Positions 41,974 to 47,853 of a stretch of DNA of 64,000 bases are shown here, piece after piece; within the stretch, counting starts at the first letter, position 1; the number at the start of each line of letters is the position of its first letter. The translations under genes and the position numbers were made by a program. Origin of the DNA: Methylobacter marinus A45 (GTDB lineage: Bacteria; Pseudomonadota; Gammaproteobacteria; Methylococcales; Methylomonadaceae); the NCBI RefSeq assembly GCF_000383855.1, contig NZ_KB912877.1:4525226-4589225 (forward strand). Reading direction: 5' to 3'. The notes beneath the pieces were generated by a model. The model had not been told where the DNA came from, made no database searches, and saw nothing but the letters and a program-made list of their open reading frames with translations.

Positions 41974-43689
41974 TTATCGATTCAATCTGGCTTTTAAGAA
42001 GTCGATGGCTTCCGCAAACGGTATTTCGATGCTCTCCTGCTCCGTTCTGGCCTTGTATTCGACCGTGCCCGCGTCCAGGCCGCGGTCGCTGACCACGAGG
42101 CGATGCGGAATGCCGATCAGTTCCATATCGGAGAACATGAAGCCGGCGCGGACTTTACGATCATCGAACAACACGTCGATGCCGGCTTGCCGCAGGTCCT
42201 GATACAGCTTTTCGGTCGCTTCCTTCAGGCGTTCGGATTTGTGCATGTTCATTGGACACAGTGCAACCTGGAACGGCGCCAGGCTGTCCGACCAGATAAT
42301 GCCCTTGTCGTCGTGATTTTGCTCGATGGCCGCCGCCACCACGCGCGAAATGCCGATGCCGTAGCAGCCCATGATCATGGTCTGGTTTTTACCGGCTTCG
42401 TTGATGATATCGGCTTTCATCGCGGCACTGTATTTGGTGCCCAGTTGGAAGATATGGCCGACTTCAATGCCGCGCGCCAGCGTGATCGTGCCTTGCCCGT
42501 CCGGGCTGGCATCGCCTTCGACGACAGTGCGCAGGTCTTCGATTTGCTCAGGGATAGGCAGATCGCGCTCCCAGTTGACGCCCTGATAATGCTTGCCGTC
42601 CTGGTTGGCGCCGCAGACGAAATCGGACATCAGGACCACACCGCGGTCGGCGATAATTTTTATCTCCAGCCCCATCGGACCGATAGAGCCCGGCTTGCAG
42701 CGGCAGGCGCTGTAAACCTCCTCATCGCTGGCAAAAGTCAGTGGCGAAGCGATGCCGTCGATTTTTTCCGCCTTGATCGCGTTCAGCTCGTGATCGCCTC
42801 TTAACAGCAGCGCCACCAGCGTGCCTTCTTCCTCGCCTTTCACGATCAGGGTTTTCAGGCATTGCTCAGGCAAAATATTGAAAAAGCGGCTGACCTCTTC
42901 AATGCTATGCTGATCGGGCGTATCGACCAGTGTTAATGCCGCCGTCGGCTGAACGCGCGATCCGGCCGGCATGACCGCTTCGGCTTTTTCGATATTGGCG
43001 GCATAGTCGCTGCCGGTCGAGAAGGCGATGGCGTCCTCGCCGGAATCGGCCAGCACGTGGAATTCATGCGAAACGGCGCCGCCGATGGAGCCGGAGTCGG
43101 CGATAACGGCGCGGAACTTCAGGCCCAGCCGGTTGAAGATATTGCTGTAGGCCTGATACATGACCTCGTAGGTTTCCTGCAGCGATGCCTGATCGAGATG
43201 AAATGAATAGGCATCCTTCATGACGAATTCGCGCGAGCGCATAATGCCGAAGCGCGGACGGATTTCATCGCGGAATTTGGTTTGCACCTGATAATAGGTG
43301 ATGGGCAATTGCTTGTAGCTTTTGATTTCATTGCGCGCCAGATCGGTAATGATTTCCTCATGTGTGGGTCCGAGACAGAAATCACGGTCGTGACGGTCTT
43401 TCAAACGCGCCAGCTCGGGGCCGTACTGTTCCCAACGGCCGGTTTCCTGCCATAACTCGGCAGGCTGAAGCGCCGGCATCAGAACTTCCAGCGCGCCGGC
43501 TTTTTCCATTTCCTCGCGCGTTATTTTTTCCACTTTGCGCAATACCCGCAACCCCAACGGTAACCAGGTGTAAAGACCGGCGGCCAGTTTACGGATAAGT
43601 CCGGCGCGTATCATCAGTTGATGACTGGCGATTTCGGCATCGGCCGGGGTTTCTTTAATGGTATTGAGCGGAAATTGAGTAGTACGCAT
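41974..43689 (-). CDS. proS: prolyl-tRNA synthetase
   Basis: 571 residues (E. coli 572). Bacterial-type Pro[22 protein letters not shown], the class II motifs in [46 protein letters not shown] in two parts, the editing insertion (INS) domain at about 220-410, and [14 protein letters not shown]. It charges tRNA-Pro and corrects Ala-tRNA-Pro through the INS domain. It is a single gene flanked by repeat elements on both sides. Confidence 0.97.
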
Positions 43690-44316
43690 TCTGTTTTTGA
43701 AAGATGAAAAAATTGAAAAATGCTATTTTACCGATTTAATACGGGTTTAGTCATCACGTTATCTCAGCTTGCCCGTCCGGCCATAAAAAAACAGATTGGC
43801 CGCCTGCTTTTTAAGTTAGGAATGGGAATGAAATAAGACCCGCAAATGAGGCAGGATTTCTGTTCATATTCAAGGCGCGCAAACAGGCGCATGGCAAGCC
43901 ATGTAACTGTTTGCGCAACGCCGAAGATGGACGGAAAGACAAGTCATTTGCGGGAATTATAAAATTCACGTTCCTTAGCTTTAATATTCAACCCATGCGC
44001 GGCTGATTATTCCATCAGCCGCGCACCAGAACCCCTAAAGCAGGATGCAATTGGCTTTTTATTCAAGCCGCGATCAACGCCTTGAGGATGTCACCGGTGC
44101 CAGGGAGCGTGAATTTTATTAACTTGCGCGATTGACTTGTCTTATCGTTCATTCCATGCATGCAGTCATTGAACAGGAACGGAAATAATGCCTCAATCGC
44201 GGGTCTTACTTCATTCCTGTTCCTAATAGTCGCCGCGTAACGGCACTTTATTGCATCAACCTAAATCCAAGCAACTGCCTGGACGGTTCCTGTTAAAACT
44301 AAACAACCGCTTATCA
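43690..44316. other. intergenic region between proS and the GGDEF-EAL gene
   Basis: About 630 bases without a supported gene. It consists largely of the 411-bp inverted-repeat element at 43816-44226. The remaining edges should contain the divergent promoters of proS and the GGDEF-EAL gene. Confidence 0.6.
43816..44226. mobile_element. 411-bp non-coding element with long inverted ends
   Basis: The left end (43816-43843, TTAGGAATGGGAATGAAATA onward) is complementary to the right end (44199-44226) at 25 of 28 bases, and weaker complementarity continues to roughly 55 bases on each side. Inside the left half is a nested hairpin with GCGCAAACAG (43877-43886) and CTGTTTGCGC (43907-43916), its loop again containing CATGGC and GCCATG. 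A further inner pair is ATAAAATTCACG (about 43958) and GTGAATTTTAT (about 44110). There is no open frame of note. It could be a MITE, or a structured repeat family acting at the RNA or DNA level. Confidence 0.6.
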
Positions 44317-47300
44317 ATGAGACCGATGACCTCTGTGAAGATTTTAGTTAAAAGTTGGCTGCCTATCATTACGACGACTGTCATTTTTTATCTGGTCGGC
44401 CGGTTGACGCTGCCATTATCATTGCCGCCCAGTTACGCTACGACCATCTGGCCGCCGGCCGGCATCGGCCTGGCCGCTGTTTTGTTATGGGGTAACCGGG
44501 TTTTGCCGGGGATATTCGCGGCTGAATGGCTGATTCATTATGAAGTTTATGATATATCGGCATTACTGGCATCGCCGCCGGAACTGGCGGTTGCGTTTCT
44601 TAATCCGCTTAATAGCGTGCTGAGGGCCTGGCTGGGCAAAGTTCTGGTCAACAAATACGCAGGATTTCCGAACTGCCTGATTTCAACCCGGCTGATTTTT
44701 CTGTTTTTCCTGCTCGCGGGCCCTGTAGCCACCTTGTTGCCGGCCATGCTGAGCGTGTATTCGTTATTTCTGGCCGGCGTTATCATCGGACAGGATCTGT
44801 TTTTTTCCTTTTTAACCTGGTGGCTGGGCGATTGCACCGGCATAGCCGTCTTTACCCCGCTGTTTTTCATTATTTTTAATCGCTCCCATAGAATCTGGCG
44901 CCAACGGTTGCTCCCCCTGGGCGTGCCGTTAGTCGGCATTTTCATAGTGCTTGCGGTCGGCTATTTAGTCGCGCGGCAAAAAGAGGTTGAACACCTGCAT
45001 AAAGTGATTGATCTTCAATCCACGATTATCCGGGATGATTTGCAAACCGGACTGCGCCAGCACCTGATGACGCTGCAACTGATCAAAGACTCGGTTGACT
45101 TGCCGAAGCCGGTATCGAAGAATGATTTTAAAACTTTTGGACGTTCGCTCTTTAATCAGCATCCCGATATTACGCGGCTTGAATGGCTTGAGGCCGCCGG
45201 CAATGCTGAAGGCCATCGCTTAATCAGCAAATACCGGGCCATTACCGAAGAGACGGCCGAATTTAAATCCGTGGCGGAAACAGCGAACGGGTTGACAATC
45301 GGTGACCGGGAAATAATCGTGACCGGCAAACACGAATTCATGGTTTTACTGCCCGTGTTTCAAACCGATACCGAGCTGAAAGGCGTTGTCGCCGAGGTTG
45401 TCAATATTGAGGACTTTGTCAGACAGACCATCAACAGGGCAAATTTTCCGCATGTCATCATCAAGCTTTTCGACGGCGCAAACGCGCCTTTGCAATCCAC
45501 CCTGTTCCAATCGAGTGGCAATCAGCCCTTATCCGACCCGCTGAACCTGACTGTCCTCGGCGCCGTCAATCTGGCTGATCAGCAATGGTTTCTGGAGATT
45601 GCGCCCGATAAGGAATTTCTCAGTGAGCATTATTCCTGGTCTGTTTCGCAAATGCTTGCCGTAGGCATGGTATTGACCGGCTTTATGAGCATCGGCTTGC
45701 TGGTACTGACCGGCCATACCGAAACCATCAGGTCCGAAGTCGACAAGCGCACCGAGGAACTCAGGCAAAGCAATATAAAACTGGCGGCCAACGAACAGCA
45801 ATTCAGAAAACTGGTGCAAACGCAATCGGCCATCGTCTGGCGCGCGGATCCCGCGTCATTCAGATTCCTGTTTGTCAGTGACGAGGCGGAAAGCATACTG
45901 GGTTATCCGGTCGACAGATGGCTGAATGAAGCGGATTTCTGGCGCCGGCATCTTCATAAAGAGGACCGGGCAACGGCGGCGGCCTATCGCCTGGAAGAAA
46001 CCCGGAACCTTCGCAATCATGAATTTGAATATCGCATGGTCGCCGCGGACGGCCGTTGCGTCTGGCTGCGCGATGTGGTTCACCTGATGATTAATAACGG
46101 CAGGGTTACGGAAATAGTCGGCTTCATGATCGACATCACCAGACAAAAGAAAGCCGAGGAACAATTGCGCCTGGCCGCAACCACTTTCGAAAGTCTGCAA
46201 GGCATCATGATCACCGACAAGAACGCCAGGATCCTGCGCGTGAACAAAGCTTTTACCCAAATCACCGGTTATTCGGCTGAACAAGTCGAAGGGCAAAGCG
46301 CCAGCATCCTGAAATCGGGCTATCATGACCCGGCCTTTTACGAGGACTTCCGGTTCCAACTGCAAACCTCCGGCAAATTTGAAGGCGAGATATGGAACCG
46401 GCGCAGGAATGGAGAGATCTATCCGGCATGGCAAACGGTCACGGCCGTTAAAAACGATTTCGATGAGGTCAGCCATTATATAAGCGTTTTCTCGGATATC
46501 ACCGCGCAAAAAGAAGCCGCCGACAAAATCCATACCATGGCTTTTTTTGACGCGTTAACGGCCTTGCCCAATCGCCGGTTATTGCTGGACCGGTTCGAAC
46601 ACGCCCTGGCGGTGGCCAAAAGGCATCACAAGTATGGCGCCGTTATTTTTCTGGACCTGGATCATTTTAAATTACTGAACGACTCCCTGGGTCATGCGGT
46701 AGGAGATGAATTGCTGATACAGGTTGCGGCGCGTCTGACTTCGGTGCTCAGAAAAGAGGATACTCCGGCCCGCCTCGGCGGAGATGAGTTTGTGGTATTG
46801 CTGCATCCCGATCTGGACAGCTTGACGGTCGCGGCGGATCATGCCATCGCGGCCGCCGAAAAAATCAGGTCCGCGTTAAACCAGGCTTTTTTTCTTAATG
46901 ATTACCAGCATCAAATATCGACGAGCATCGGCATCGCCTTGTTTCCCGATAACCATGTCGGCACCGATATCATTCTGCAACAAGCCGATACCGCGATGTA
47001 CCGTTCAAAAGCCAGCGGCCGCAATAGCATCAGTTTTTATCACCCAAGCATGCAGGAAGCGGCCGATGTACGTATCAAGATGGAAAACAATCTGCGCATT
47101 GCCGTCGAGCGGAACCAATTTACGCTTTACTATCAGCCGCTGGTCGATAGCGAAGGCGTTGTATTGAGCGCGGAAGCGCTGATTCGATGGCCGCAACCGG
47201 GCAAAAACATGATGCAGCCAGCGGAATTTATTGCCGTTGCCGAAGAAAGCAATTTGATTTTAGCGGTTGGTCAATGGGTACTGATGGAGGCGTGCCGTCA

Positions 47301-47853
47301 AATCAAAGCCTGGCAAACGGCGGGCATCAATTTGCCGCATATTTCCGTCAATGTCAGCTCCCGTCAATTCCGTCAGCCTGATTTCGTCGACCAGGTCCGG
47401 CTGGCCCTGACCCGCAGCGGCATTGCGCCGTATCTGCTTGGTATTGAATTGACCGAAGGCGTGATGATTGATGATTTAAACGATACCGTTTCTAAAATGA
47501 AGGCCTTAAAGGCCTTGGGGATTTCGATAGCCGTGGATGATTTCGGCACCGGTTACTCGTCTCTGGCCTATCTGAAAAAACTGCCGATCGATATATTAAA
47601 AATAGACCGGAGTTTCGTCAGGGACATTTTAACCGATATGAATGATGCCGTGATTGTGCAGGCCATCCTCGGCATGGCCAAACACCTGGGCTTGCACGTC
47701 ATTGCCGAAGGCGTGGAAACGGCGCAGCAATTCGATCTTCTGAAACAGCAGGAGTGTCCGAGTTTTCAGGGCCATTATTTCAGCCATCCCCTGCCGGCAA
47801 AGCAGTTTGCGGAAAAATACTACAGCTTGTGGCGGCGATCCATGAGCTTTTAG
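44317..47853 (+). CDS. MASE1-CHASE-PAS-PAS-GGDEF-EAL c-di-GMP signalling protein
   Basis: 1178 residues from the ATG at 44317; the frame extends back to a TTG at 44251. Order: MASE1 membrane sensor with about eight helices (about 10-230, TIWPPAGIGLAAVLLWG), a CHASE-like periplasmic domain (about 245-440), a last membrane helix, PAS (about 500-620), PAS (about 625-740), GGDEF with intact GGDEF at 821-825, and EAL with intact EALIRW at 953-958 and DDFGTGYSSLAYLKKLPID. Both catalytic halves look complete, so it could make or break c-di-GMP. The histidine kinase at 49.5 kb has the same MASE1-CHASE input. Its stop overlaps the convergent porin stop by 4 bases. Confidence 0.93.
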   Translation: MRPMTSVKILVKSWLPIITTTVIFYLVGRLTLPLSLPPSYATTIWPPAGIGLAAVLLWGNRVLPGIFAAEWLIHYEVYDISALLASPPELAVAFLNPLNSVLRAWLGKVLVNKYAGFPNCLISTRLIFLFFLLAGPVATLLPAMLSVYSLFLAGVIIGQDLFFSFLTWWLGDCTGIAVFTPLFFIIFNRSHRIWRQRLLPLGVPLVGIFIVLAVGYLVARQKEVEHLHKVIDLQSTIIRDDLQTGLRQHLMTLQLIKDSVDLPKPVSKNDFKTFGRSLFNQHPDITRLEWLEAAGNAEGHRLISKYRAITEETAEFKSVAETANGLTIGDREIIVTGKHEFMVLLPVFQTDTELKGVVAEVVNIEDFVRQTINRANFPHVIIKLFDGANAPLQSTLFQSSGNQPLSDPLNLTVLGAVNLADQQWFLEIAPDKEFLSEHYSWSVSQMLAVGMVLTGFMSIGLLVLTGHTETIRSEVDKRTEELRQSNIKLAANEQQFRKLVQTQSAIVWRADPASFRFLFVSDEAESILGYPVDRWLNEADFWRRHLHKEDRATAAAYRLEETRNLRNHEFEYRMVAADGRCVWLRDVVHLMINNGRVTEIVGFMIDITRQKKAEEQLRLAATTFESLQGIMITDKNARILRVNKAFTQITGYSAEQVEGQSASILKSGYHDPAFYEDFRFQLQTSGKFEGEIWNRRRNGEIYPAWQTVTAVKNDFDEVSHYISVFSDITAQKEAADKIHTMAFFDALTALPNRRLLLDRFEHALAVAKRHHKYGAVIFLDLDHFKLLNDSLGHAVGDELLIQVAARLTSVLRKEDTPARLGGDEFVVLLHPDLDSLTVAADHAIAAAEKIRSALNQAFFLNDYQHQISTSIGIALFPDNHVGTDIILQQADTAMYRSKASGRNSISFYHPSMQEAADVRIKMENNLRIAVERNQFTLYYQPLVDSEGVVLSAEALIRWPQPGKNMMQPAEFIAVAEESNLILAVGQWVLMEACRQIKAWQTAGINLPHISVNVSSRQFRQPDFVDQVRLALTRSGIAPYLLGIELTEGVMIDDLNDTVSKMKALKALGISIAVDDFGTGYSSLAYLKKLPIDILKIDRSFVRDILTDMNDAVIVQAILGMAKHLGLHVIAEGVETAQQFDLLKQQECPSFQGHYFSHPLPAKQFAEKYYSLWRRSMSF

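Follow-up and report, generated by a model that had tools for sequence, protein, structure and literature searches.

The 411-bp region at positions 43816–44226 of the window (the whole stretch of 64,000 nucleotides from Methylobacter marinus A45 analysed here) contains a 156-bp hairpin element twice, in inverted orientation; the left copy (unit A) is intact and the right one (unit B) is decayed. The element belongs to a real mobile family, whose status as a family of MITEs is well supported by its copies, its target sites and an empty site. As an explanation of the whole, we consider it probable that a non-autonomous MITE is moved by an IS5/PIF-type transposase acting in trans, while the hairpin of one of its strands is selected, probably as RNA.

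Organisation of the 411-bp region

The region was described in the first-pass annotation as a single non-coding element with inverted ends of roughly 55 bp and further inverted pairs nested inside. The inverted ends are present (43816–43873 with 44169–44226, 58 nt, 83% complementary), 25 of their outermost 28 bases agree as read from the sequence, and inverted-repeat comparison recovers five further pairs within 43816–44226 (Table 1). None of the listed ORFs of at least 60 aa overlaps the region, in line with its description as non-coding and without a transposase. What did not survive is the notion of one element, since the region consists of two separate inverted copies. Taken as a single 411-bp element, its flanking triplets disagree (TTA on the left of A versus TAA on the right of B), whereas unit A alone is flanked by TTA on both sides. 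The far side of unit B reads CTG on B's strand; with TTA on one side and CTG on the other, unit B has no duplication left.

The fold proposed for the whole region is borne out, with one qualification. Folding of the 411 nt yields −202.6 kcal/mol versus −111.4 ± 5.6 in 100 shuffles (z −16.4), but this very low energy is reached largely because the inverted copies A and B pair with each other. Folded alone, unit A gives −77.9 (z −11.8), while unit B barely folds (−30.2, z −2.2). Both units sit between the divergent genes for proline--tRNA ligase and a MASE1-PAS-GGDEF-EAL protein, and the hairpin in the spacer between them is absent from the terminator scan listing.

Table 1. Coordinates of the two units, their inverted pairs and the neighbouring genes, in positions of the window.
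Feature	Position	Strand	Basis or remark
Proline--tRNA ligase	41974..43689	-	NF006625, 851.6 bits; distance from its start codon to unit A, 129 bp
Left target-site triplet TTA of unit A	43816..43818		Sequence; family-wide TWA triplets
Unit A, intact, 156 bp	43819..43974	+	Covariance model R1, 151.2 bits, positions 1-156
Hairpin at the centre of unit A; its GC/AA internal loop is conserved (GGCGCATGGCAAGCCATGTAAC)	43877..43916	+	Inverted pair 43877-43895/43898-43916
Right target-site triplet TTA of unit A	43975..43977		Sequence
Spacer between units A and B	43978..44103		Holds 12-bp hairpin
Perfect 12-bp hairpin in spacer	43996-44007/44014-44025		Inverted pair
Unit B, decayed inverted copy, 120 bp, without central hairpin	44104..44223	-	R1, 36.2 bits
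TAA adjoining unit B (TTA on B's strand)	44224..44226		Sequence
Inverted pair	43927-43964/44115-44152		Inverted-repeat comparison
Inverted pair	43818-43849/43944-43975		Inverted-repeat comparison
Inverted pair	43959-43979/44099-44119		Inverted-repeat comparison
MASE1-PAS-GGDEF-EAL protein	44251..47853	+	Longest ORF from 44251; true start may be further in

Copies, target duplication and the empty site

A genome-wide copy search, one of the checks suggested with the first description, shows that the first 162 bp of the region match many other places in the host genome (4.99 Mb, two contigs) as a unit. Covariance model R1 locates at least 39 places in this genome (51 matches at E ≤ 0.001, 12 of which are the second strand of a place already counted), BLAST adds some more, and near-identical copies are among them. 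With the 162-bp copy as BLAST query, matches are found in 16 of 61 genomes, host included, and in none of the three other genomes of the same genus (0/3). One genome of the same genus (G003) joins the two flanking genes without either unit and so provides the empty site for the comparison; a stretch of about 67 bp on the element's right-hand side is missing there too, which makes the exact target unreadable in this genome.

The ends of the element read GGAA(C/T)G.../...C(A/G)TTCC, in the layout TWA-GGAAC...GTTCC-TWA, and the element makes a 3-bp TWA target duplication. Among the 23 host copies tabulated with their flanks, 17 carry the identical TWA triplet on both sides (9 TTA, 8 TAA), one carries two different TWA triplets and five have TWA on one side only. 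The elements found by R1 at loci that supplied no seed, with both flanks available (n = 65, including two host copies and one place counted twice, L078 = L119), have identical triplets in 24 cases and TWA on both sides in 27, and in 23 of these 27 the two triplets are identical.

The suggestion that the region might represent a family of MITEs is therefore borne out by dispersed copies, 3-bp target duplications and an empty site in a sister genome. At 156 bp the element lies below the upper limit of about 500 bp for MITEs, and it has terminal inverted repeats, a target duplication, no transposase gene and dispersed copies that are absent from the orthologous site; its 3-bp TWA target is of the IS5/PIF type. 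PIF/Harbinger elements likewise target TWA, and IS5 is the related bacterial clade, although the target of the bacterial IS5 elements used in the consulted part of that source is ANT, not TWA (PMC4482050). The hairpin elements differ from PIF/Harbinger as described there (PMC4482050) in being non-autonomous, and no matching transposase was found in the loci searched.

Search for a transposase partner

None of the loci searched yielded an autonomous IS5-type element that shares these ends. The element's ends are absent from 22 PF01609 matches in the host genome, from 30 IS5-like loci in the host's bacterial family, from 24 NF033580 matches in 14 carrier genomes and from 27 PF01609 matches in 10 genomes; nine Bacillota carrier genomes contain no NF033580 match (0/9). 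At the 24 NF033580 and 27 PF01609 loci, the end search covered pairs spaced by 800–2300 bp and flanked by TWA at either end; four of these 51 carrier loci possess weak end pairs, whose ends are unrelated to the element. Family-type ends 600–3000 bp apart occur as six pairs in the loci collected, and each was set aside: two belong to IS5 elements (L282 and L283), another falls between two element families of the host, and three, with larger ORFs between the ends, enclose apparent host proteins, identified by eye as a channel, a VanZ-like protein and a DNA clamp.

IS5 elements of the same bacterial family are also flanked by TWA, with other ends (GAACTTATCC, GAAGCTGTCT and GAGCCTGTTC); as the list of these ends took TWA-flanked pairs only, it is no test of the IS5 target. 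The host itself contains an element named IS5 by NCBIfam (transposase at C1:2065905-2066765), which has the left end GAACTTATCCGTAAATAA and is TWA-flanked.

Relatives in other phyla

Scanning of named genomes for the pattern GGCGCATAGCNNGCTATGNAAC gave at least 120 stretches, and among the matches listed are Methylococcales, Candidatus Venteria ishoeyi (Thiotrichales), SAR324, Lachnospiraceae and other Bacillota, and Bacteroidales. The core shared by the 125 core matches, which were partly read by eye, follows from the search pattern; the GCAGGATTTTT / AAAAAGACAAG loop and stem, the TWA flanks and the length lie outside the pattern and are common nevertheless. Extraction, which demanded TWA and a degree of outer complementarity, gave 82 distinct elements. 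Of these, 51 fall within 150–162 bp, including 42 with a length of exactly 156 or 158 bp; 12 are shorter (several from an inner TWA taken as the end) and 19 are longer.

Two Bacillota carriers are isolates by their record titles: Lachnospiraceae bacterium A4 has members scoring 81 and 79 bits (L206), and a 61-bit member comes from Clostridiaceae strain 1XD21-72 (L143). Phylum-wide R1 searches, which used stricter filters, gave matches in 42 out of 398 genomes from the host's phylum (host included) and in 5 of 299 genomes of the phylum of G483 (this centre genome included). G483 contains at least 10 copies at 147–157 bits, a sign of recent spread. Members from Bacteroidota are weaker, with 34–55 bits under R1 for L103, L116, L129, L131 and L174, and R1 gave no match for L120 from the same phylum. 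No match to a Bacillota element was obtained in plasmid and phage records, nor to unit A in plasmids.

Conserved fold and covariation

The seed alignment A1 comprises 30 sequences (17 from Pseudomonadota, 11 from Bacillota and 2 from SAR324), which were picked for a core with at most three changes, TWA on both sides, outer 18-bp complementarity and a length of 150–162; of 31 sequences picked, one was removed as the opposite strand of a retained sequence. A1 has 21 invariant columns, 12 of which are within the searched pattern. RNAalifold assigns 51 pairs to A1, with two-sided compensatory change in 36 of them. The paired cells amount to 92.1%, versus 73.0 ± 0.7% in shuffled alignments and 41.0–45.7% with slid structures, two-sided change is found in 291 of 1525 cells versus 104.6 ± 7.8 in shuffles, and the covariation score is 0.490 versus 0.158 ± 0.009. 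The observed pairing, two-sided change or score was reached by none of 500 shuffles (0/500), in statistics that take no account of the tree.

The outer helices, flanks and length of the seeds are not independent evidence, because they were used as selection criteria; independent evidence comes from the inner pairs and from the flanks of non-seed elements. Sequences were chosen without regard to complementarity in the 36 inner pairs, 7 of which fall inside the searched pattern, whereas the outer 15 pairs partly reflect that choice; 24 of the inner 36 show two-sided change. Two asymmetric loops, GC/AA inside the search pattern and GCAGGA/GACAAG outside it, are kept by almost every sequence in the cross-phylum alignment. 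Folds of single sequences reach z values of −13.5 for a methanotroph relative and −18.1 for a Bacillota relative.

Compensatory changes beyond the shuffled and slid controls are thus found across phyla, without correction for the tree, and they support the reading as a structured element proposed in the first-pass annotation. A unique sequence with no covariation in relatives, named there as the outcome that would speak against the proposal, was not what was found, as both copies and covariation exist.

Strand asymmetry of the stem

If only the DNA palindrome matters, G-U and A-C are expected in equal numbers, since reading either one on the complementary strand gives the other. An initial rough count was hardly biased (404 G-U versus 356 A-C, p 0.09), and viewed by column it included many A-C cells because a few fixed loop positions supply them. 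In the later count, stem columns were defined regardless of strand and internal-loop columns were separated. The stem columns of 80 elements then contain 242 G-U and 76 A-C, with G-U in excess in 62 elements, the reverse in 10 and 8 ties, so that the strand-specific wobble of a structured RNA is seen here, though hardly in the rough count; this count and those that follow take no account of tree shape. Clustering at 65% identity leaves 95 G-U and 28 A-C (22 versus 3 elements, 3 ties). Elements found by R1 lean to G-U, and the 65% set without them (17 representatives, by subtraction) has 51 G-U and 21 A-C (11 versus 3). R1's own pairs, minus two that are wobble-dominated, give 144 versus 50 in the 60 best-scoring elements (42 versus 11, 7 ties).

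Within single genomes, the distinct states come close to parity, with 16 G-U and 15 A-C in the host (32 and 30 cells) and 12 and 10 in Venteria. The contrast between the within-genome and the between-lineage counts is not clean, as the cells in Venteria number 27 and 16 and the 11 simple host copies alone have three G-U states and one A-C state. Taken together, the between-lineage excess of G-U and the near-parity within genomes suggest that landed copies mostly drift, whereas persisting lineages keep the pairs of one strand. These counts support selection on the fold of one particular strand during spread, followed by drift after landing, and the selected single strand is most likely RNA.

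Proposed mechanism and alternative explanations

In the explanation favoured here, each unit is a non-autonomous DNA transposon (MITE), which an IS5/PIF-type DDE transposase provided in trans would excise and insert at TTA or TAA. One strand of the 156-nt hairpin, with its fixed loops and conserved core, appears to be selected in spreading lineages, as the wobble counts support, and copies that have landed would drift. The selected strand would be an RNA read from the plus strand of the element, and its fold could aid spread, for example through protein binding or through processing out of host transcripts.

The orientation of the host copies bears on the last step. By a rough ORF rule, 16 of the 23 copies lie between tandem neighbouring genes, 8 in the same direction and 8 in the opposite one, while three are between divergent and two between convergent genes, one is inside an ORF and one is unclear. 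The 8:8 ratio does not favour an effect on the transcripts of host genes, and it is accordingly more likely that the element's own RNA has a role than that the element serves as terminator or stabiliser.

The main competing explanation, which we regard as unlikely though still to be reckoned with, is an ordinary MITE whose long palindrome stays matched through template switching or arm-to-arm gene conversion in replication, its structure being functionless. Arm-to-arm copying occurs in other palindromes, and both the distinct states within one genome, which have no clear strand preference, and the unbiased gene orientation (8:8) would suit such an origin. However, arm copying should erase asymmetric loops, yet GC/AA and GCAGGA/GACAAG persist in nearly all rows, and it gives no reason for the excess of G-U over A-C between lineages. 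It is quite improbable that the element is a single-strand DNA hairpin moved by an HUH transposase (IS200/IS605 or RAYT), with the preference reflecting the DNA strand that is moved: a strand preference without bias in gene orientation would be explained, but terminal inverted repeats and a 3-bp duplication mark DDE transposition, and HUH elements are not known to produce a target duplication. A structured RNA gene or regulatory RNA that is inherited with its locus and is not mobile would account for covariation and fixed loops, but it is hardly credible, as it is already contradicted by tens of dispersed similar copies, by their absence from sister genomes, by the empty site and by the target duplications.

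With the selected-hairpin MITE as the preferred reading, the family may tentatively be proposed, at a confidence somewhat short of even, as an undescribed class of mobile structured RNA. In that view, a hairpin about 156 nt long, its core conserved and its internal loops fixed, would ride as a MITE, a single strand of one polarity would be selected during spread, and compensatory changes would have preserved the fold in Pseudomonadota, SAR324, Bacillota and perhaps Bacteroidota. MITEs are usually viewed as remnants of a single insertion sequence within one species group, with an interior not worth keeping. Here the interior is conserved across phyla in its core, its loops and its exact length (the last in about half of the extracted elements), and the stems change in matched pairs; such deep conservation of a structured MITE interior across very distant bacteria is unusual. 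If the fold is selected, a non-autonomous element owns a function that aids its spread. Comparing G-U with A-C counts, inside genomes on the one hand and between lineages on the other, could serve as a simple test of whether the hairpin of any MITE family matters.

Comparison with known systems

No comparable element or explanation was found in searches of open-licence papers. Structured RNAs in Rfam 15 likewise possess conserved helices, compensatory change and fixed loops, but the element itself, both in the window and in the 12 loci tried, scored below the cut-off of every Rfam 15 family. The Bacillota element L106 gave such matches below the cut-off to three microRNA hairpin models, MIR5380 with 60.1 of the 150 bits needed (E 6.8e-10) and, weakly, mir-249 and mir-233; a microRNA identity was rejected on these scores, which were taken as matches to any long hairpin. 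Clostridiales-1 RNA (RF01699, 131 bits) matches positions 726–887 of L143 from Clostridiaceae strain 1XD21-72, beside the family member at 252–411 and not on it, and this identity was dropped because the match is about 300 bp away; the proximity is probably a coincidence.

Correia and ERIC elements duplicate TA, not TWA. They resemble the present element as short palindromic MITEs with folding transcripts, some being cleaved by RNase III or exposing a site for RNase E (RNase III cutting is described for Correia elements), and they differ in range, with Correia in Neisseria and ERIC in Enterobacteriaceae and Vibrionaceae versus a cross-phylum element here, as far as the sections used of a 2024 review of prokaryotic MITEs go (PMC10969869). 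These sections cover stable transcript folds and BOX, and the word 'phyla' is absent from the review (PMC10969869).

The nearest known layouts are those of BOX and BrickBuilt, judged from the consulted parts of the respective sources. BOX of Streptococcus pneumoniae is alike in its outer pieces, its variable number of inner modules, its predicted RNA fold and its multicopy state, and differs in being reported from S. pneumoniae and S. mitis, with related elements in S. suis, a comparison made by description only (PMC3049150). BrickBuilt and other IS5-type MITEs of Porphyromonas gingivalis are alike in having IS5-type ends without a transposase, predicted long stem-loops and internal tandem repeats, the last of which recall a module present seven-fold in one host element (L039, see below); the difference lies in their description from one species and in target duplications stated not to be uniform in length or sequence, and the consulted text mentions no core conserved across phyla (PMC4596501).

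Variant forms and associated elements

Longer forms of the element contain inner pieces inserted at two recurrent spots, near positions 58 and 105. In L039 (host C1:2262233-2263126), an inner piece of about 45 bp is present seven times within one element. Palindromes of about 34 bp in the host consist of only the element's two ends (L235-L240, L242); both ends hold CGGGA(A/G)T, and deletion between such short direct repeats, which would produce these forms, is probably how they arose.

A second host family (L223-L234, about a dozen places examined) has the ends TTAGGAACGCGCATAAAATAA ... TTATTCCATGCCCATTACTTA, an inner GTAGGTGCGAA hairpin and variable modules; it resembles the 156-bp element in layout, but its inner hairpin differs. 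In some methanotroph and related genomes (L085, L126, L128, L137 and L194), the same core hairpin is joined to entirely different arms (TATACTTCGCGCGGTC...), as if this central hairpin were exchangeable between element families.

Two near-identical long-form copies of about 280 bp lie approximately 3.7 kb apart in L045 (host C1:4019361-4024000), where they flank ATPase-like genes (named by eye), the beginning of which recurs downstream of the second copy; this arrangement either arose by tandem duplication between the repeats or is an artefact of the assembly. In a genome of the same family as the host (G009, L366), an IS5-type element with the end TAA-GAGCCTGTTCAAG is inserted at a TAA which adjoins the apparent end of a member of the present hairpin-element family. 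A Blautia bin (L164, 1450-2066) contains three family members within about 620 bp on one strand, the first two being 3 bp apart.
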